Virus record (IMG/VR): IMGVR_UViG_3300007514_000054
Span: 1-26,701 of that record
DNA length: 26,701 nucleotides
From: a virus
Direction: 5' to 3' (one strand)
Positions 2,563 through 16,138 of this stretch are shown here, one piece after another. Numbering within the stretch: the stretch's first letter is position 1; each line of letters begins with the position of its first letter. The notes beneath the pieces are model-generated. The model searched no databases and was not told the DNA's origin. It saw only the letters and a list, made by a program, of their open reading frames with translations. The position numbers were made by a program, and so were the translations under genes.

Positions 2563-3816
2563 TTAATTGTTAAATTTACTTCGTTTAATTTTCAATTTTG
2601 AACTATCTACACCGTCTATAGCTCGAACTTTAAATCCTCCAACGTATATATCTTCCGTGCCTGATTGGCGCGCTTGATCAATTGTAGGGTTCTTAGAACT
2701 TTCTACAACGTTTTTTATTCCATCAGATTTTCCTTGTTCGTAAAAATGATTTACTATTTTATCTATATTCTGTGCAGCATATATAGCTTTATGATAACCT
2801 TTCGTATCTTTAACATTCCCTTCTTTGTCTAAGAACTTCTCGACGAAGTTGTTTAGATTAGATTGATTTTCTGCAACCGCACTGGGATTCTTAACACCGT
2901 ATCTAAATTTCTTTTCACCAACTTCGAAATCAAAACCTTTGAATTCATCAGTGAACATTTTTTTAGTATTATTAAGAAATTTTTCATGCTTTTGCGTAGC
3001 TATTTCTTGTTCTTTACTGTAGCGATTAAAGAAGTCCATAGCTTTTTGTTGGTCTTGATTTACGCCCGGCCTCAACTTGATCTCGTCGTAATATTTATTT
3101 TTCATTTCCTCCAAAAAGTACTTCGCTTCTGCTACAGCTTCTTTTTTAGCGAGTTTTTTTCGTTTGACGTCTCGCTCTTCGTCAACTTCATTATCATAAT
3201 CAAAGCTTTCTTCTAATATAAAGTCAACTTCTTCTTTATTCAAATGAGGTTTTGTTTTAGTATAATACTCTCTTAATAAAGCATCATCATTTACGCTAGA
3301 ATAATCAGCGTTAAGTCTTACATAGTCTTCAACTGTTCCACCAGTATCTTTCATAAAATCTACCAGTTTTTCAACATTCTCTGGTAAATCCACAGTTTTA
3401 GGTGATACTTCATCTATTACTGTATTTTCTGGTTCTTTTACTTCTACCTCTTCTTCTTCAACTTCGACAATAGGCGATTCGGGTTCTGATACTTGCACAT
3501 CTTCCTTTGTATCGCTGACCCGTACTTCTCCGTCCACTCCCTCGCTATCTCCGGCTCGTTCGCCCACAGGTATTTCCTTTGTTTCTCCGATAGGAATGGC
3601 ATTGTCTTCTTCTTTTTTAGTTAAATCTACTTTTACTGGTTCTTCAATTTTAGCATTAGCTTCTAATGAAGTATCCACTTTAGATAAATCCACTTTAAAT
3701 GGTTTATCTTTTTCTGTTTTAAATTTTTCAAATTTAGGTTTGGATTTCATTTTCATATCCCCACCTTCTGATTTGACTTCTTTAGTCACCTCAGGTTTTG
3801 TTTCTGTTTTTGACAT
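2563..3816 (-). CDS. Scaffolding protein of the prohead
   Basis: The 417-aa product lies between portal and capsid, the usual scaffold slot. It is strongly charged and largely disordered or helical. Residues 1-135 are a Lys/Glu/Val-rich low-complexity region with acidic runs (VEVEEEEVEVKE). Residues 145-250 contain acidic and basic helices (YFLEEMKNKYYDEI), and the C-terminal part ends basic (KLKIKRSKFNN), as scaffolds often do where they touch the capsid. It should guide capsid assembly inside the prohead and leave before DNA packaging. A GC-rich patch in the N-terminal low-complexity region is unlike the rest of the gene. The start has the leader TATTATATTATG without a Shine-Dalgarno sequence. 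The function is inferred from context and composition. Confidence 0.7.
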   Translation of the reverse strand: MSKTETKPEVTKEVKSEGGDMKMKSKPKFEKFKTEKDKPFKVDLSKVDTSLEANAKIEEPVKVDLTKKEEDNAIPIGETKEIPVGERAGDSEGVDGEVRVSDTKEDVQVSEPESPIVEVEEEEVEVKEPENTVIDEVSPKTVDLPENVEKLVDFMKDTGGTVEDYVRLNADYSSVNDDALLREYYTKTKPHLNKEEVDFILEESFDYDNEVDEERDVKRKKLAKKEAVAEAKYFLEEMKNKYYDEIKLRPGVNQDQQKAMDFFNRYSKEQEIATQKHEKFLNNTKKMFTDEFKGFDFEVGEKKFRYGVKNPSAVAENQSNLNNFVEKFLDKEGNVKDTKGYHKAIYAAQNIDKIVNHFYEQGKSDGIKNVVESSKNPTIDQARQSGTEDIYVGGFKVRAIDGVDSSKLKIKRSKFNN

Positions 3817-8430: not shown

Positions 8431-8705
8431 TACTTAGACCTCCTTTCTGCAAAACCTCCAAAAGCTTTTTCTTTTTTAACTTCTTTAGGTTTATCTTCTA
8501 ACATATTTTTTTCTTCTTCAATTCTATTTAAAATTTCAAAAGCATCAAATATAGCTAACTTTTTAGTAGCTGCAGCATTTTTAAGTCTATCTGCGGAAAT
8601 ATCAGTATCAGAATCTACAATAGGCTCTTTAGCAACTTTAATTAATTCTTTAACTGCTACTTGCCCAGCTTGGATTATATTCTTCTTCGTTTCCTTTGTA
8701 TTCAT
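8430..8705 (-). CDS. Candidate small terminase subunit, 91 aa
   Basis: A small charged helical protein encoded immediately before the large terminase and sharing one base with it (TAATG). The predicted helices cover TKKNIIQAGQVAVKELIKVA (about 6-25) and ADRLKNAAATKKLAIFDAFEILNRIEEEKN (about 38-67), which could oligomerise as small terminases do, followed by a basic tail. The position fits the DNA-recognition subunit TerS, but no clear helix-turn-helix is seen and I infer the role from context. Its start lies 56 nt inside the upstream 201-aa gene in another frame, an unusually long overlap. The last codons (GAA AGG AGG) carry the ribosome-binding site of terL. Confidence 0.5.
   Translation of the reverse strand: MNTKETKKNIIQAGQVAVKELIKVAKEPIVDSDTDISADRLKNAAATKKLAIFDAFEILNRIEEEKNMLEDKPKEVKKEKAFGGFAERRSK
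8438..8448 (-). promoter_or_regulatory. Strong Shine-Dalgarno sequence of the large terminase
   Basis: The minus strand reads AGAAAGGAGGT, which is complementary over 11 bases to the usual bacterial 16S rRNA end ACCUCCUUUCU. Its AGGAGG core ends 8 nt before the terminase ATG, which is ideal spacing. It lies inside the last codons of the preceding gene. None of the other starts examined in this window has a comparable site. Confidence 0.75.
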
Positions 8706-9255
8706 ACTTTATAACAATATCATTTGATTTCATACAATAAATTCGCTTATTATCTATAATAAACTCCCATTCTCTTCCTGGTTTATACCCAACTAAGTCT
8801 CCTGGATTAATATTAGATGCTTTTAATTCATCATTACCTATTTTTAATATACCTATACACTTTTGTTCTAAATCTAGCGTTAAAGGATCAGTATCTTTAA
8901 TAGGCATTATAAAACATCTATTCATAAATGGTAACCAATTATCATCTTTTTTATATAAATAAATTTGATTAGGTTTACAAAAATATAAATCTTCTTTAAA
9001 ATATTGTGAACTATTTCTTTCATTACCTCTTACATCATACCATCTTCTAAATATATTATGATGTATTATTACTTCATCACCTTCTTTTATATCTGTGCAA
9101 TAAGCAATAGGAATAGATACAACTACAGCATGTCTACTCACTAGTTTATGATCTTCAATATTAGTATTTATTATAAGAGTTTTATCCCCTAATTTAATTT
9201 CATTATTATACCTATTTTCTTTTGGGGTTATAATAAAATCATATATACTATTCAT
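8650..9255 (-). CDS. Putative double GroES-fold protein, 201 aa
   Basis: The sequence appears to hold two GroES (Cpn10)-like beta barrels. Repeat 1 (about 17-101) has HAVVVSIPIAYCTDIKEGDEVIIHHNIFRR and then EDLYFCKPNQIYLYKK. Repeat 2 (about 111-186) has RCFIMPIK, IGILKIGND, INPGDLVGYKPG and FIIDNKRIYCMKSNDIVIKYE. The second lines up with E. coli GroES segments [36 protein letters not shown]. Neither repeat has a GroES mobile loop with the hydrophobic tripeptide, so it may not cap GroEL in the standard way. The start overlaps the previous stop (TAATG at 9255). The role is unknown; assembly help for head proteins encoded downstream is an inference. The fold assignment is by eye. Confidence 0.5.
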   Translation of the reverse strand: MNSIYDFIITPKENRYNNEIKLGDKTLIINTNIEDHKLVSRHAVVVSIPIAYCTDIKEGDEVIIHHNIFRRWYDVRGNERNSSQYFKEDLYFCKPNQIYLYKKDDNWLPFMNRCFIMPIKDTDPLTLDLEQKCIGILKIGNDELKASNINPGDLVGYKPGREWEFIIDNKRIYCMKSNDIVIKYEYKGNEEEYNPSWASSS

Positions 9256-9485: not shown

Positions 9486-9746
9486 TTACTTTTCTTCAGA
9501 CTTATCCTCTTCTTTTATTTCTTCATAAGAACCGTCTTGTAAATTAATATTTACTTGACCGTATTTTTCTTCAAGTTCTTTTTTAGTAACTTCAAGTTCT
9601 TTAGCAAATTCACTATATGCTCCTAAAACTTCAGCTTTTCTTACTTCTAATGCACCTAAGTCCATTACAACTCGTTGAATTTTACCTTGTTGTTCTTTAA
9701 CAGTAGTTAATTCCTGTTCTTCAATTTTGTTTACTTTTTCTGCCAT
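9486..9746 (-). CDS. Small coiled-coil protein, 86 aa
   Basis: The 86-aa product is almost entirely charged alpha helix: VNKIEEQELTTVKEQQGKIQ and FAKELEVTKKELEEKYGQV have heptad-like spacing of hydrophobic residues, so a dimeric or trimeric coiled coil is likely. The tail is acidic (EEIKEEDKSEEK). No family is recognised. It stands between the holin-like gene and the small protein at 9482. A spanin or internal-scaffold role cannot be excluded, but there is no lipobox, signal or transmembrane segment. The start has an AATTAAAATTTAATCAAATG leader without a Shine-Dalgarno sequence. Confidence 0.65.
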   Translation of the reverse strand: MAEKVNKIEEQELTTVKEQQGKIQRVVMDLGALEVRKAEVLGAYSEFAKELEVTKKELEEKYGQVNINLQDGSYEEIKEEDKSEEK

Positions 9747-10262: not shown

Positions 10263-10406
10263 TTATTTATTATAAGGAAATAATCTATTTAATATAGATT
10301 TTCTTGATTTACATCCGCATCCTCCTGGAATTTTATCTGCTAATTTTTTTATTCCTGTTGCTTGAGTGAATTTTTCAATAGTATCTCCTAATCCTTTTGA
10401 TTCCAT
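10263..10406 (-). CDS. 47-aa Cys-Gly-Cys phage peptide
   Basis: A short frame fills the otherwise empty gap between the metalloprotease and holin-like genes. It reads MESKGLGDTIEKFTQATG, then IKKLADKIPGGCGC and KSRKSILNRLFPYNK, with a stop at 10263. An amphipathic helix is followed by a CGC pair, a basic patch and an LFPY end. Small proteins with the same plan (GLGDTIEKxTKATGI ... CGCxxRKxxLNxLFPY) are, from memory, common in marine and gut phages with no assigned function. The start lies 4 nt after the preceding stop and it ends 1 nt before the holin-like start, so it is tightly embedded in the operon. The two Cys may bind metal or form a disulphide. Confidence 0.8.
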   Translation of the reverse strand: MESKGLGDTIEKFTQATGIKKLADKIPGGCGCKSRKSILNRLFPYNK

Positions 10407-10410
10407 TTTA

Positions 10411-10731
10411 TTATAATTTTTCGTAATCATCTGTTTTACTATAAGCTTCTTTTTCCCATGGTAAATTAGGATTACCTTCTTTCATTTTAGATCTTGGATA
10501 AGCTTTCCCTTTCCAATACACATTTTTATCATCATAATCTAAATCACCTCTTTTAATTTGATCTATATGAACTTTTTCATGATCAATAATACTTTGATGG
10601 TCCTTGGGGTGTAACTCATCTGAAATTAAAATAGTCCCATTATTGTTACCTTTTCCTAAACATCCTTCTTCTAAATCTCTCTCGTATATTGGAGGTTGTT
10701 CTTCAAATGGGGGTTTTAGTTTAAAGGCCAT
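10411..10731 (-). CDS. Mini HExxH zinc-metalloprotease-like protein
   Basis: The 106-aa product contains IIDHEKVHIDQIKRGD, an HExxH zinc-binding motif at residues 51-55 (H51, E52, H55), with a downstream PWEKEAY in which E93 or E95 could be the third ligand. That is the pattern of gluzincin-type minimal metalloproteases. The preceding strand TILISDEL and the helix around the motif fit such a fold. It is very small, and no signal peptide is present. The location beside a holin-like gene suggests either a lysis-associated peptidase or a virion or maturation protease; the sequence alone does not decide. The start overlaps the end of the 244-aa gene by 11 nt, so translation is probably coupled. 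Confidence 0.6.
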   Translation of the reverse strand: MAFKLKPPFEEQPPIYERDLEEGCLGKGNNNGTILISDELHPKDHQSIIDHEKVHIDQIKRGDLDYDDKNVYWKGKAYPRSKMKEGNPNLPWEKEAYSKTDDYEKL

Positions 10732-11455
10732 ATTTATTTGCTATTGTCATTGGATTACCGCTAGGTATAGTCATTCGTTTTTTAGTAGTAGGTTGAGTAA
10801 CTTTTTCACTATTTTCTTCATTAGGTGTAATAAAGAATGAAGCTACTTTTGGACCAAACCCAGTACTAATAACTGAGGGTATATTTGTAAGTGACTTTGT
10901 GAATTTCTTTTTTGCTATTTCTGAGGGGTTGGTACCAGTTTCATCCCCTATAAAATTATCTGCGCCCACTGCGGCTTCATATTTTGTAACTACTTCCGAA
11001 TAAGGTTTTACTTTACTAATATTCTTCATTATTCGTCCTCCTTTATTAATCATATTGCCTGCTGCAAATACATCCCCAAACCCAGGTATGGCTGAAAAGC
11101 CATATATTCCCATATTTTTAAGATGCTTAAGCCCTTCTTCTGTATTTCCTTTAGAAAAATTACTTATCATTCTACCTCCAGAAATAACAGTATTAGCTAT
11201 ATCAGCTAAAGGATTTACTAAACCTCCTAATGAAAGTGCATCTTGAAATTTATCTATATTACTTCTATCTCTTGCAAATTTTTCATTATTTTGAACAATA
11301 ATATCTTTATCTTTATTAATATCTATTTCAGGATCAATATCAACTTTTTTTGTATTTTCAACAACTTCTTCAGTTAATTTATTTAAAGGGGATAAAGAAT
11401 TACCTCCTACTACAGAACTTGTCCGTGAGAAACCAAAGGTTTGTGTATAAGGCAT
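10721..11455 (-). CDS. SPLN-tagged protein with Gly-rich hydrophobic centre, 244 aa
   Basis: No family is recognised with confidence. The N-terminus contains NSLSPLNKLTEE (SPLN at 22-25), the short tag shared with several genes upstream. A charged region follows (DIDPEIDINKDKD). The middle (about 74-145) holds GLVNPLADIANTVISGGRMI and YGFSAIPGFGDVFAAGNMINKGGR, Gly- and Ala-rich amphipathic helices. The PGFGD segment looks like the turn in pre-toxin domains of polymorphic toxins, and such helices could also insert into membranes. The C-terminal third is basic and polar. It may be a virion-carried, membrane-active protein, but this is speculation. It overlaps the metalloprotease start by 11 nt. 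Confidence 0.6.
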   Translation of the reverse strand: MPYTQTFGFSRTSSVVGGNSLSPLNKLTEEVVENTKKVDIDPEIDINKDKDIIVQNNEKFARDRSNIDKFQDALSLGGLVNPLADIANTVISGGRMISNFSKGNTEEGLKHLKNMGIYGFSAIPGFGDVFAAGNMINKGGRIMKNISKVKPYSEVVTKYEAAVGADNFIGDETGTNPSEIAKKKFTKSLTNIPSVISTGFGPKVASFFITPNEENSEKVTQPTTKKRMTIPSGNPMTIANKYGL

Positions 11456-11465
11456 AATTATTTAT

Positions 11466-11870
11466 TTACCAAGATTGTGCATTTTTAGCAAAGTTTGCCA
11501 TTTTAACTACTTCAGAACTATAGGCTCCTTTGTCGCTCATGACTTTATTTGCAGCCTCTGCAGCAGTCCATCCACGAGCTTTTGCCCATTTAGTAAACTT
11601 ACCTCTATTTTCAGGTTTTATTTCATTTAAAGGAGATGAAGTTTTTCTATCTACACCTTCTGGATAATGTCTACTTTTATCTTGACTAGCTACATAATCT
11701 GCATCATAATCTGGATGACTAGAAATAAAAGTTCCAGGATTTTTTTGCCCGTCACTAGTATCAAATGGATCACTCTCCCCATAAGGGTCCATATTTTCTT
11801 CAGTCCATGATATATTTTTAATTGGAGAAGTTTTTCTACTTATCGGATTGTTTGATTGTTTATAAGCCAT
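11466..11870 (-). CDS. Doubly SPLN-tagged protein with a KFTxWAK C-terminal module, 134 aa
   Basis: The N-terminus MAYKQSNNPISRKTSPIKN is clearly paralogous to that of the 64-aa gene at 12998. A second copy of the tag, DRKTSSPLN, is at residues 74-82. The C-terminal 45 residues form a separate module: GKFTKWAKARGWTAAEAANK followed by YSSEVVKMANFAKNAQSW. From memory this FTxxAK...KxANFAKNA pattern is widespread at protein ends in uncultured phages and some large viruses, with no known activity. The linker is acidic, Asp/Ser/Pro-rich and probably disordered. A virion component is likely, given its place among structural genes. The start has an A/T leader and no Shine-Dalgarno sequence. Confidence 0.65.
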   Translation of the reverse strand: MAYKQSNNPISRKTSPIKNISWTEENMDPYGESDPFDTSDGQKNPGTFISSHPDYDADYVASQDKSRHYPEGVDRKTSSPLNEIKPENRGKFTKWAKARGWTAAEAANKVMSDKGAYSSEVVKMANFAKNAQSW

Positions 11871-11881
11871 AACTGTTTGTT

Positions 11882-12211
11882 TTATTTAGTTGCTGCTCCG
11901 TGATCTAATTCAGGAATATATTTAAACTCATCTTTTCTTTTTGTAGCCGCTTTTTCATTAGCATCTAAAGGTGATGAAGATCTTCTTGATACTCCTTCTT
12001 TCTTTTCATCATGTCTTACATCTTCAGCTAAACGTGTGATGTGTTTTTCATCAGCTGTTTGCTTTTCATCTTTATCTTTTGCGTGATATCTTTGATCATC
12101 TAAAACATCTCTTTTAAGATAATCCATATGAGCTTTATCGTCTCTAATTGCTGCTTTCACATTACTTTTTGTAATATGAGTATGCATATGTTTGTGTATT
12201 GGATGTGCCAT
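11882..12211 (-). CDS. Histidine-rich helical SPLD-tagged protein, 109 aa
   Basis: Ten of 109 residues are histidine. The first twelve residues, MAHPIHKHMHTH, place His at 3, 6, 8, 10 and 12, a plausible metal-binding cluster. Residues 17-72 are a charged helix (NVKAAIRDDKAHMDYLKRDV and further), and SRRSSSPLD at 75-83 is another copy of the small-protein tag. The end is basic then polar. No known family is recognised. Composition and tag suggest a small virion or internal protein; metal binding is inference. It lies 11 nt upstream of the 134-aa gene in the same operon and starts from an AAATAAAAATG context. Confidence 0.6.
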   Translation of the reverse strand: MAHPIHKHMHTHITKSNVKAAIRDDKAHMDYLKRDVLDDQRYHAKDKDEKQTADEKHITRLAEDVRHDEKKEGVSRRSSSPLDANEKAATKRKDEFKYIPELDHGAATK

Positions 12212-12230
12212 TTTTATTTATTTTTAATTG

Positions 12231-12776
12231 TTATATATATGCTGTTATTTTTTCTGCAGTAGTTCTGGTATCTGGAGCACCATTAGCCCCTACCGCTCCT
12301 ACTAAAACTCTTTGTACTACAACAGACAATGTTTCCCCTGCAACTACTCCGGGTATAAGTATTTCATCGCCATCAATAGTTTTTACAAAAACATTCCCAG
12401 CAGTTCCTACCATCAACATAGCTGCTTTAGGATTTGCTTTATTAGCATCATATATTTGATACTTTTGAGTATTGCCTTTACTATCAGCTGCAGTAAAAAT
12501 ATCTGCTGATAATGATAATTGAGTATTACTATCTATACCTGTTATTACTGCAACACTAGGCATAAAAGCAGTACCTACTCTTGCTTGGGCCATATTATAT
12601 ACTACCATTCCTACGTGGACAGATCCTCCTGTAAACCCACCATTAGTATCAACAAGTTTATTTGCTGTTAAACTAGTAGTAGTACCAGAAACTCTAATTT
12701 TAGGTCCCGGAATATTAATTGTGTCACTAAGTGCTACCGGGACGGCGTTAGTATAAGTACTTGCATTTATTATCAT
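12231..12776 (-). CDS. Beta-rich decoration-like virion protein, 181 aa
   Basis: The protein is poor in charge and rich in Val, Thr, Ala and Gly, like many capsid decoration or head-fibre proteins. Strands alternate with short turns: VSGTTTSLTANKLVDTNGGF, VHVGMVVYNMAQARVGTAF, SVAVITGIDSNTQLSLSADI. The C-terminal part (VFVKTIDGDEILIPGVVAGE, then LSVVVQRVLVGA) resembles the motif of phage decoration proteins in which 'GGDEV...GLAAG...PVQVVRV' recurs. There is no catalytic motif or signal peptide. It is an odd neighbour for the SPLN-tagged genes on both sides and supports the idea that this block encodes virion surface parts. Role by composition only. Confidence 0.55.
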   Translation of the reverse strand: MIINASTYTNAVPVALSDTINIPGPKIRVSGTTTSLTANKLVDTNGGFTGGSVHVGMVVYNMAQARVGTAFMPSVAVITGIDSNTQLSLSADIFTAADSKGNTQKYQIYDANKANPKAAMLMVGTAGNVFVKTIDGDEILIPGVVAGETLSVVVQRVLVGAVGANGAPDTRTTAEKITAYI

Positions 12777-12803
12777 GATTATTTATTTATTATTTTTATT
12801 TAT

Positions 12804-12998
12804 TTAGTCTTTATGCGCTTTTTTAGCTTCTTCTTGTGCTTTAAAAAGATGAGCATATGTTTCATAGAAGTCTCCTTCTGGTTGTTCTTTTTCCCATTTT
12901 GCTCTTGCAGCATCTATTTTCTTTTGCCACTCGCCATGTTTGTTTAATGGTGAACTAGATTTTCTAGATAGTGGGTTGTTTATTTGTCTATATGCCAT
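12804..12998 (-). CDS. Small SPLN-tagged protein, 64 aa
   Basis: The N-terminus MAYRQINNPLSRKSSSPLNK carries the canonical tag (S11-N19) and is paralogous to the start of the 134-aa gene. The rest is a charged helix, HGEWQKKIDAARAKWEKEQP, followed by FYETYAHLFKAQEEAKKAHK. No enzyme motif is present. It begins 2 nt after the stop of the preceding 75-aa gene and uses an AATAATTATG start without a Shine-Dalgarno sequence. Function is unknown; the tag plus a simple helix suggests a structural adaptor or cargo peptide, which is inference. Confidence 0.65.
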   Translation of the reverse strand: MAYRQINNPLSRKSSSPLNKHGEWQKKIDAARAKWEKEQPEGDFYETYAHLFKAQEEAKKAHKD

Positions 12999-13000
12999 AA

Positions 13001-13228
13001 TTATTTTCTTTTAGCGATTTGTGTTATTGGACCTGCTGTATAAGGAACTGCACCTAGTTTAAGTTTCATTCCATAAATTCCAGCACTCCATCCTTTTCCG
13101 TGAGGTCTATCTTCTTGATCTAGTGGTCCATCCCATATTTGAGATTCCCCAACTATACCTACAGAGTTGTTTTTAGAAGCATGTGTATGAGACTTGTCTT
13201 CTATCATTTTAAGTGGTGATTTTTTCAT
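13001..13228 (-). CDS. Small SPLK-tagged protein, 75 aa
   Basis: The product starts MKKSPLKMIEDKSHTHASKN, with SPLK at residues 4-7 and an HTH pair close behind. It ends with YGMKLKLGAVPYTAGPITQI and a basic tail. The middle is Gly/Asp/Trp-containing (QIWDGPLDQEDRPHGKGW) and probably lacks long helices. No domain is recognised. A short N-terminal basic 'SPL' start is common in small marine-phage proteins, from memory. It lies in a run of small genes between the chaperonin cassette and the lysis genes, 10 nt downstream of the 221-aa gene. Confidence 0.65.
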   Translation of the reverse strand: MKKSPLKMIEDKSHTHASKNNSVGIVGESQIWDGPLDQEDRPHGKGWSAGIYGMKLKLGAVPYTAGPITQIAKRK

Positions 13229-13904: not shown

Positions 13905-14350
13905 TATCTGCTTTTATCTTTATTTACATTATAAATAGCATAAGTTAAAACTTTATCTGTATATGTATTACCAGCTATTAATTTATTTCTACGTTCACTT
14001 GTTGGTATATCTTCACTTCCTAACATTATTCTATACATTCTGTTAATAAGTTGTTTACCTTTAAATGAAATTTTATATATATTATATGTTTGCGTGGTTC
14101 TATTTCTATGACGCCACACTTTAATCCAATCATCTTGGAGTAGTTTACTCCATCTCCTGTTATTCCAACTAAAAGAATATACTCCTGCTTCAAAATCTTT
14201 TCTTGTAAACAGTTCTATGCAGTCTAAATAAATTAATAACTCTAACTCTGCATCAGTTAAGCCGTTGTTTTTGGAAGCCCATTTGCGTATTATACGGTAA
14301 TGTTTTAACAAGTTCATCTCTTTCAGGTCTCTTGCTTCTAGCCTTTTCAT
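13904..14350 (-). CDS. Winged-helix (MarR-like) protein, 148 aa
   Basis: The sequence reads as a winged helix. A helix NLLKHYRIIRKWASKN comes first, then LTDAELELLIYLDCIELFTR, a possible recognition helix around SWNNRRWSKLLQDDWI, a wing with KVWRHRNRTTQTYNIYKIS, and a last helix KGKQLINRMYRIML. The protein is basic, which fits DNA binding. The gene overlaps the GroES stop by 4 nt and the next start by one base, placing it inside the chaperonin cassette rather than in an early regulatory region. It may be a late regulator or a structural wHTH protein. The fold is judged by eye; the target is unknown. Confidence 0.6.
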   Translation of the reverse strand: MKRLEARDLKEMNLLKHYRIIRKWASKNNGLTDAELELLIYLDCIELFTRKDFEAGVYSFSWNNRRWSKLLQDDWIKVWRHRNRTTQTYNIYKISFKGKQLINRMYRIMLGSEDIPTSERRNKLIAGNTYTDKVLTYAIYNVNKDKSR

Positions 14351-14607
14351 AAAACAACGACCACATTCTCTTGTCTAATGACATGATATGGTTCTTTTTT
14401 TATTTCTATTCTGTGAGCTGCTGCTTTATCAAAATAAATAATATCATTTTGTTTTACTGCAACTACAGTATCACCAACGGTTATTACTTTAGCTTGTTGA
14501 AACCTCACATCTTCACGTTGTTTCTCAGTTAAAAGTAATCCACCTTTAGTTTTTTGATTAGATTCTTCTATTTTTTTTATTATCAAGTTATTTCCTATCG
14601 CCCTCAT
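14347..14607 (-). CDS. groES: Co-chaperonin GroES
   Basis: The 86-aa protein is the heptameric lid of the chaperonin. It starts MRAIGNNLIIKKIEES, like the first GroES strand. The mobile loop, KTKGGLLLTEKQREDV, has the hydrophobic triad LLL (24-26) where E. coli has IVL, and this triad should dock on the GroEL apical domain. It continues VITVGD, QNDIIYFDKAAAHRIEI and ends VIRQENVVVVL. Compared with E. coli GroES (97 aa), the roof hairpin after VGN is missing, as in T4 gp31, and the mobile-loop region is about two residues longer. The start lies inside the end of groEL (20-bp overlap), so both are translated from one message, with GroES second. Confidence 0.85.
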   Translation of the reverse strand: MRAIGNNLIIKKIEESNQKTKGGLLLTEKQREDVRFQQAKVITVGDTVVAVKQNDIIYFDKAAAHRIEIKKEPYHVIRQENVVVVL

Positions 14608-16138
14608 GTAATCTAATATTATTTATTATACAATCAGTAGATAAAATAGTACTTGCTACAGAAGCTGCATTTAATAATGCACTTTTTGTTACTAATAATG
14701 GGTCAATAATCCCATTATCAATCATATTTACCATATTTCCTGTAACCACATCTATTCCAAAACCATCCTTTTCAGGTATTTTAGGTTCTAGGCCAGCGTT
14801 TTCTAGTATAATTTTATAAGGTGATAAAATAGATCTTGTTAAAATCTTTTCACCTTCATTTTTTTCTTTTATATTAGCGGCCGCATTTAATAATGCAATA
14901 CCACCGCCAGGAACTATACCTTCTTTTATTGCAGCTTTTGTAGCACAAATAGCATCTTCAACTCTATCACTCTTTTCTTTTAATTCGATTTCTGAGTTAG
15001 CACCTACTTTAACTACGGCTACTTTAGCAGCTAATAACGCAAGCCTTTTTTCATGTGCTAGTTTGTATCCAGGAATTTTCTCTACAGCTTGTTTTGCTTG
15101 AATTTCTTCAATTAAAACTTTCACAGCATCTGGAGTTTCTTTTACTTGTATTATTGTATTATCTTTATTACAGATTACTTTTTTAGCCCTACCTAAATGT
15201 TGCGGATGAATTAAATCCATATCATCACCTAAATCTTCATTTATAACAGTAGCACCAGTCATTAAAGCTAAATCATTTAACTTTTCTTTCTTTGTAAATC
15301 CATAGGTGGGAGCATCTACAATACAAGCTTTTATATTACCTTTCATCTTATTCATTGCAAGAGCAGCTAAAACTTGAGGTTCTACATCTGCTATTATAAA
15401 TAAAGATTCATTGGATTTTATAACATGTTCTAATATACTTTGGATTTTTCGTATATTTTCTATTTTAGATTCAACAACTAAAATAAGAGGATTTTTTAAT
15501 TCAGCAACACCCTTTGTTTTATCTGTTGCAAAATGTAAACTTTTTAAAGGTTTATCATATTGCATACCATCAATAATTTCAACTGATGAAGTTAAGTCTT
15601 TAGATTCTTCCATTATTACGATGCCAGTTTTATCTACACTTTTAAATGCTCCACCAATTAGTTTACCTAATTCTGAATCATTATTTGAAGAAATAGTGGC
15701 AACCTGATCAATCATGTCGCCTGTGACTTCGATAGTAATATCTTCTAAATATTTTATAACTTTTTTTACAGCTGAATTAATACCCTCTTTTAGTTGTCTA
15801 GTATTAATTTCTTTTTCGCTTGCTTCTTCTAGTATTGCTTGTGCTAATACCGTTGCCGTAGTAGTACCGTCACCGGCTTCTTCTACAGTTTTTCTAGCAG
15901 CTTCTTTTATAAGTGTTGCACCCATATTTTCAACAGCGTCAAATAACACTATTGAGTTTGCAACAGTTACACCATCTTTGGTTATAATGGGTTTTCCTTG
16001 ATCATCTTCGAGGATAACACACTTGCCGCTAGCCCCTAATGTGGAGCTAACAGCTTTAGTGAGTTTGTTTATCCCTTCAAATATTTGATCTTTTGCATCT
16101 TTACCGAAGTTAAGATGTTTCACAAGTTTATTGGACAT
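14588..16138 (-). CDS. groEL: Chaperonin GroEL, phage-encoded
   Basis: This 516-aa group I chaperonin should form the ATP-driven folding ring. Equatorial ATPase residues are intact: D55 (ITKDG), D90 in GDGTTTATVL and D395 in RVEDAICATKAA, with GGG at 411-413. Apical residues known to bind substrate and GroES in E. coli are altered: Y199 is L198, Y203 is H202, L234 is Q233, V263 is A and V264 is M. F204, L237 and L259 equivalents remain. The C-terminus ends IRLHEGDRK, without the GGM tail. The nucleotide-loop TLGPKG reads TLGASG. Viral chaperonins of this kind are known from phage EL and marine viral metagenomes. groES follows with a 20-bp overlap. Confidence 0.95.
   Translation of the reverse strand: MSNKLVKHLNFGKDAKDQIFEGINKLTKAVSSTLGASGKCVILEDDQGKPIITKDGVTVANSIVLFDAVENMGATLIKEAARKTVEEAGDGTTTATVLAQAILEEASEKEINTRQLKEGINSAVKKVIKYLEDITIEVTGDMIDQVATISSNNDSELGKLIGGAFKSVDKTGIVIMEESKDLTSSVEIIDGMQYDKPLKSLHFATDKTKGVAELKNPLILVVESKIENIRKIQSILEHVIKSNESLFIIADVEPQVLAALAMNKMKGNIKACIVDAPTYGFTKKEKLNDLALMTGATVINEDLGDDMDLIHPQHLGRAKKVICNKDNTIIQVKETPDAVKVLIEEIQAKQAVEKIPGYKLAHEKRLALLAAKVAVVKVGANSEIELKEKSDRVEDAICATKAAIKEGIVPGGGIALLNAAANIKEKNEGEKILTRSILSPYKIILENAGLEPKIPEKDGFGIDVVTGNMVNMIDNGIIDPLLVTKSALLNAASVASTILSTDCIINNIRLHEGDRK

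Follow-up and report, generated by a model that had tools for sequence, protein, structure and literature searches.

The capsid targeting sequence (CTS) of phage T4 is a short conserved peptide, the sole feature common to a set of highly diverse small internal proteins, and it brings about their encapsidation into the precursor scaffolding core (PMC3012670). Family 1 encapsulins employ a targeting peptide with the consensus SDGSLGIGSLKRS, mostly C-terminal, which is read by the HK97-fold shell (PMC8346489). Virions of crAss001, a phage of Bacteroidota, contain cargo proteins amounting to several megadaltons, among them gp45, gp46 and RNA polymerase-associated proteins (PMC10172136). Here we consider a 26.7-kb virus record, IMGVR_UViG_3300007514_000054, analyzed over its whole length (hereafter, the window) and encoding 27 predicted proteins. 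Six copies of a short peptide with the core SP[LI][NKD] (hereafter, the tag) are spread over five of its small minus-strand proteins; all six are present, on the minus strand, at the places given in an original prediction made from this DNA.

Results

Tag copies in the window

The six tags are not due to chance, since the five carrier proteins (T1 to T5; Table 1) hold six matches to SP[LI][NKD], while 20,000 residue shuffles of the same proteins give a mean of 0.07 and a maximum of 2. When all 27 window proteins are taken together, seven matches are observed against 0.51 expected by residue shuffling (maximum of 4 in 5,000), the seventh lying in a 2060-residue fibre. The carriers had been described as five neighbors sharing a basic tag, and both parts of that description need some adjustment: the carriers are five of six neighboring small genes, with an untagged gene standing among them, and the word basic suits five of the tag copies, NSLSPLN being without any basic residue.

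Enrichment and confinement in relatives

Relatives of the window were gathered by means of the terminase, the holin and the T5 protein, and motifs were counted per genomic region against residue shuffles. Because the T5 query itself contains the tag, loci chosen by T5 were removed from the key statistic, which rests on the terminase- and holin-chosen loci. In these, the interval between GroES and the large terminase (TerL) holds 53 matches to the pattern [RK].{0,2}[ST]SP[LIMF] where 1.9 are expected, and all other regions hold 0. In this same interval set SPLN is seen 69 times against 1.4 expected, the control TPL remains near expectation, and 37 of the 49 complete GroES-TerL intervals encode two or more tagged proteins. 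With all loci included, the pattern is found 127 times between GroES and the terminase block, against 4.4 expected, and again 0 times in other regions. The phage group concerned is large: a single collection yields 600 or more matches to the terminase.

Upon masking the tags and clustering the proteins by similarity, tagged members turn up in 59 or more of the 160 dissimilar clusters, a rough figure obtained from single-linkage clusters, one of which is oversized at 297. The earlier view that the carrier bodies are otherwise unrelated is supported, with the correction that it overlooked a 13-residue leader, MAY[KR]QxNNP[LI]SRK (residues 1-13), common to T2 and T4, as well as the MPYTQ start of T1. 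Within the terminase-portal-capsid genes, on the other hand, the pattern is absent (0 observed versus 3.5 expected), which rules out the tag as a marker of all structural proteins. This absence from undoubted structural proteins suggests that the tag is the mark of a cargo-like subset and not of virion proteins as a class.

Shape, position and codons of the motif

Residue-position statistics, compiled over 568 non-redundant interval proteins, reveal a motif broader than that of the window, namely [RM]-x-x-S-P-[L>F,M>I]-N. SPL is enriched 11.8-fold, followed by SPF, SPM and SPA; SPLN is found 105 times against 0.9 expected, so that Asn after SPL exceeds expectation more than 100-fold; and Arg at position -3 from the Ser stands at 33 times expectation. 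TPL reaches merely 1.5-fold, Ser and Asn being the sole residues to attain 2-fold at the first position of XPL.

These preferences bear on the notion of the tags as SPKK/SPXX-like turns that bind DNA, condensing or coating it once packaged. Basic flanks would suit such a role, as would the many SPAK/SPM repeats in Lys-rich proteins of some relatives, but the third residue of the tag is hydrophobic (L, F, M or I) and the fourth mostly N, while SPK (9 versus 29.0 expected) and SPR (4 versus 12.9) are each depleted to 0.3 times expectation among the non-redundant proteins, and the two together are seen 17 times against 44.4 expected in the terminase- and holin-chosen interval. We therefore disfavor DNA binding of this kind as very improbable. 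The Lys-rich proteins, encoded at L031:3592-4242 and in L252, both tag-using genomes, may represent the tag in multi-copy form.

Residues 1-20 hold 219 of the 483 SP[LIMF] copies (~45%), against 65 expected, and 123 copies lie beyond residue 80. Codon usage at the tags equals background, and selection therefore acts on the peptide and not on the DNA; together with the varying synonymous codons of the six window copies, this rules out a DNA-level element or a recent duplication. Tags are slightly more alike within a genome than between genomes (0.98 versus 0.84 identities of 8; 0 of 300 permutations), a within-genome signal too weak for genome-specific variants to stand as proof of a single receptor, the SPx residue tracking the genome marginally.

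A leader and a modular build

Many tag carriers begin with a common leader, M[AG]YKQxNNP. A scan of 2.9 million viral contigs returned 54 stretches with this leader, on very different proteins. Most of these stretches also hold homologues of the window's morphogenesis genes, and 14 of the 15 without clear homologues belong to records with genes for this portal and terminase. In the genomes of bacteria and archaea, a matching leader-started open frame is found in one contig only, an apparent mis-binned phage of the group. Taken together, these scans make the leader almost exclusive to the lineage. The contig L263 (PBPJ01000034.1), binned as Woesearchaeota, looks like a phage of the lineage and has its leader, SP tags and neighbors.

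The tag stands directly ahead of several distinct domains, both at protein starts and inside fusions. It precedes the KFTxWAK module in 10 of 11 cases and the DUF5872-like module in 11 of 13, and it is also found ahead of CAKSEGG (as 'DSPMN-ACAKSEGG'), DUF6321 and IWDGPL. The long PHROG profiles phrog_727 and phrog_3477 match the DUF5872-like and DUF6321 modules both. Synechococcus phage S-N03 encodes, just upstream of TerL, a 500-residue protein with a C-terminal DUF6321 module (L260:3681-5183); in the present lineage the module is borne separately, by proteins that have it behind the leader. A virion annotation was looked for among DUF6321 relatives in cyanophages and pelagiphages, and none was found.

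Shared leaders raise the prospect that the common stretches are functionless, neutral remnants of repeated N-terminal gene duplication, as the 13 residues common to T2 and T4 and the recurrence of leaders on many genes might suggest. Such an origin is hard to reconcile with background synonymous codons at the tags, where the DNA has diverged while the peptide has held, with tags that are also internal and ahead of domains, and with position-specific constraints that persist across dissimilar proteins; we likewise disfavor it and give it very little credence.

The HEKVH neighbor

Next to the carriers is a gene for a metallopeptidase-like protein with an HEKVH sequence, whose N-terminus, MAFKLKPPF, resembles the leader and whose homologues in loci L041 and L253 bear full tags or leaders. 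Across the homologues E52, H55 and E93 are invariant and H51 is nearly so. Minigluzincin and PprI/IrrE metallopeptidases combine HExxH and a distal Glu in a gluzincin fold. These are the nearest folds to an AlphaFold 2 (AF2) model of the protein, by matches that are all weak (Foldseek E no better than 0.07; Z 4.7-6.0).

The motif might accordingly be the recognition or cleavage site of a maturation protease, possibly this very neighbor, that trims N-termini and separates fused domains. The occurrence of tags at N-termini and domain borders, the conservation next door of a gene with the HEKVH sequence and invariant E93, and the nearest folds of the model would all agree with such an activity. 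Some tagged homologues, however, have lost the HExxH sequence (EELKH, EEVEH), and the peptidase therefore looks like cargo itself; conservation of the motif also extends over the basic -3 residues and the N at +3, and the fold matches are poor. We consider a protease site rather improbable.

Features and gene layout of the window

Table 1. Tags, carriers, leaders and candidate partners in the window
Feature	Position	Strand	Evidence or match
Tag MKKSPLK, start of T5	13208..13228	-	sequence
T5, 75 residues, VGIVGESQIWDGPL family	13001..13228	-	tag in 22/72 cluster members
N-terminal leader MAYRQINNPLSRK, T4 residues 1-13, overlaps T4 tag	12960..12998	-	sequence
Tag SRKSSSPLN in T4	12942..12968	-	sequence
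T4, tagged protein, 64 residues	12804..12998	-	
Untagged neighbor, 181 residues	12231..12776	-	homologue of elemo phage gp41
Tag SRRSSSPLD in T3, SP at residue 80/109	11963..11989	-	sequence
T3, His-rich, 109 residues	11882..12211	-	36 homologous open reading frames in the loci collected
N-terminal leader MAYKQSNNPISRK, T2 residues 1-13, overlaps first T2 tag	11832..11870	-	sequence
First T2 tag, ISRKTSPIK	11817..11843	-	sequence
Second T2 tag, DRKTSSPLN, ahead of KFTxWAK module	11625..11651	-	sequence
T2, 134 residues: leader, tag, linker, tag, KFTxWAK module	11466..11870	-	phrog_5333 / phrog_20603, weak
Tag GGNSLSPLN in T1	11381..11407	-	sequence
T1, 244 residues, MPYTQ leader	10721..11455	-	tag in 13/17 cluster members
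HEKVH metallopeptidase-like protein	10411..10731	-	conserved beside tagged genes
Small acidic protein, 86 residues, candidate tag partner (speculative)	9486..9746	-	171 homologous open reading frames
Scaffold-position protein, acidic N-terminus, candidate tag partner (speculative)	2563..3816	-	

The carriers sit between the chaperonin genes and the packaging genes. On the minus strand, the window encodes fibres, GroEL, GroES, a winged-helix-like protein and the small-gene block, and further a holin-like protein, a second GroES-like protein, the large terminase, the portal, the scaffold-position protein and a capsid protein. GroEL, GroES and the second, 201-residue GroES-like protein, which adjoins the terminase, are phage-encoded (8650-9255 and 14347-16138, minus strand). 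The portal is 41-49% identical to those of Elemovirus phages and a spring-water phage, and more distant relatives have Cellulophaga and Maribacter as hosts; the named relatives are classified in their records under Elemovirus, Pervagoviridae and Pachyviridae, not Crassvirales.

As for the carriers themselves, T1 has no significant Pfam or PHROG match and no phage-record match. Tagged carriers were sought among cultured phages, and the T1 and T5 bodies and a DUF5872 tag protein went unmatched in 50,697 phage records; T2 has matches there in gut phages, and these involve just its KFTxWAK module. The AF2 model of T5 is unstructured (predicted local distance difference test, pLDDT, 59) and too poor for fold assignment. 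A 55-residue protein of the form GLGDT...CGC..R..LN..FP, encoded at 10263-10430 on the minus strand, matches phrog_32048 and phrog_27568; an SP tag precedes this module in 0 of 58 homologues.

Discussion

A degenerate, modular, multi-copy peptide on unrelated neighbors points to recognition by one partner. The tag core, [R/K/M]-x-x-S-P-[L/F/M/I]-[N/K], often accompanied by the leader M[AG]YKQxNNP[LF], would then be a short linear targeting motif, an address label that marks a varying complement of accessory proteins across a lineage of marine Bacteroidota phages. Most probably, the motif would be bound by a hydrophobic pocket beside an acidic patch, both on a single assembly component that the phage encodes, be it the scaffold or core, the portal or the capsid interior; binding would load the tagged proteins into the procapsid, and the loaded proteins would stay in the virion and be delivered along with the DNA. 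Fused domains would keep their internal tags because, as we propose, each cargo domain carries its own.

Judged from sequence, there is about an even chance that the tag is such a cargo-loading or docking motif, like the T4 CTS in logic without belonging to its family, with a virion assembly component as partner and the carriers packaged. A further-reaching version is possible, if somewhat less probable: a lineage-private address code, in which the degenerate peptide and leader would bring dozens of unrelated small proteins, a repertoire with fast turnover, into the virions of these abundant and uncultured marine phages, and gain of a tag would make a new gene into cargo. The targeting or assembly signal first suggested for these proteins is thus supported insofar as a modular motif, selected at the protein level, occurs on unrelated bodies within one interval; packaging itself we infer.

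The main alternative is a docking motif for a phage-encoded hub within the cell, such as a replication, transcription or lysis complex, to which tagged accessory factors would be recruited and remain unpackaged. The same clusters, codons, modularity and residue statistics would fit, known structural proteins are without the motif, the block also contains a holin-like gene, and the leader-bearing HExxH protein bears a weak resemblance to regulatory peptidases that work inside cells, such as PprI/IrrE and the minigluzincins. Late virion genes are favored instead by the chaperonin-to-packaging position and by findings in the cultured phage phi40:1. There, tandem mass spectrometry (MS/MS) places gp080 among the virion proteins, a small basic protein whose gene stands between those for winged helix-turn-helix and GroES2-like proteins; the same holds for gp077, just upstream, and gp069, further upstream. 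Weak homologues of gp080 are present in the tag-using genomes L161 and L130. On balance we hold an intracellular hub to be fairly unlikely.

Several observations weigh against packaging of the carriers as set out above. The virion proteins that phi40:1 encodes in the corresponding place, or close to it, are without a tag, the cultured relatives with virion proteomics (phi40:1 and phi18:3) have no tagged proteins, and no tagged protein was found among the virion mass-spectrometry hits consulted. The tags are not strictly terminal. Two uncultured complete intervals of the 49 are without tagged proteins, so that this morphogenesis system can do without tags, and the presence of the holin-like gene means that not all genes of the interval need be virion genes. 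Finally, the partner is at the candidate stage only.

Two speculative candidates, the small acidic protein at 9486-9746 and the scaffold-position protein, are present in tag users and missing or different in untagged cultured relatives; for the former, no homologue was detected in these relatives. The acidic N-terminus of the latter has 'KQEGDFKIK' and 'KVDLTK' stretches conserved in tag users, a lead only, since the untagged relative L101 keeps the first ('KQEGEFKLK').

Should the tag be a packaging signal, the virion cargo of uncultured marine phages would be predictable from sequence alone, many families of uncharacterized function, DUF5872-like, DUF6321 and KFTxWAK among them, would become candidate injected proteins, and the tag might be transferable for loading proteins into phage particles. 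Even with another complex as partner, it constitutes a clear linear-motif system in a large phage group, undescribed as far as we have searched.

Comparison with known systems

The nearest likeness is to the T4 CTS: in both cases a short peptide is found on otherwise unrelated proteins of one phage, here on five in the window and, among relatives, on members of at least 59 dissimilar clusters. The CTS, however, is extreme N-terminal, whereas fewer than half of the SPLN tag copies are N-terminal and several may occur in one protein. It directs proteins into the prohead and is removed by the prohead protease, while the present tag is known from its sequence and would, we infer, lead to encapsidation; the phages and the peptides themselves are unrelated. 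Encapsulins, too, place a short peptide on unrelated cargo, but the N-terminally biased [RM]xxSP[LFMI]N is dissimilar to the Family 1 consensus, SDGSLGIGSLKRS. The cargo proteins of crAss001 are large, and the text consulted describes no common tag on them. With the SPKK/SPXX elements of sperm histones and H1 the tag shares Ser-Pro amid basic residues, sometimes repeated, but instead of Lys or Arg it has a hydrophobic third residue and Asn as the fourth, and SPK and SPR are depleted.

As originally supposed, no named motif of this kind came to light: we found no description in the papers and family libraries searched, a scope that left most subscription journals outside. T4 and the encapsulins already exhibit the logic by which unrelated cargo is given an address peptide; what is new, as far as our search extends, is the motif, the phage lineage in which it is found, and its internal, multi-copy use.

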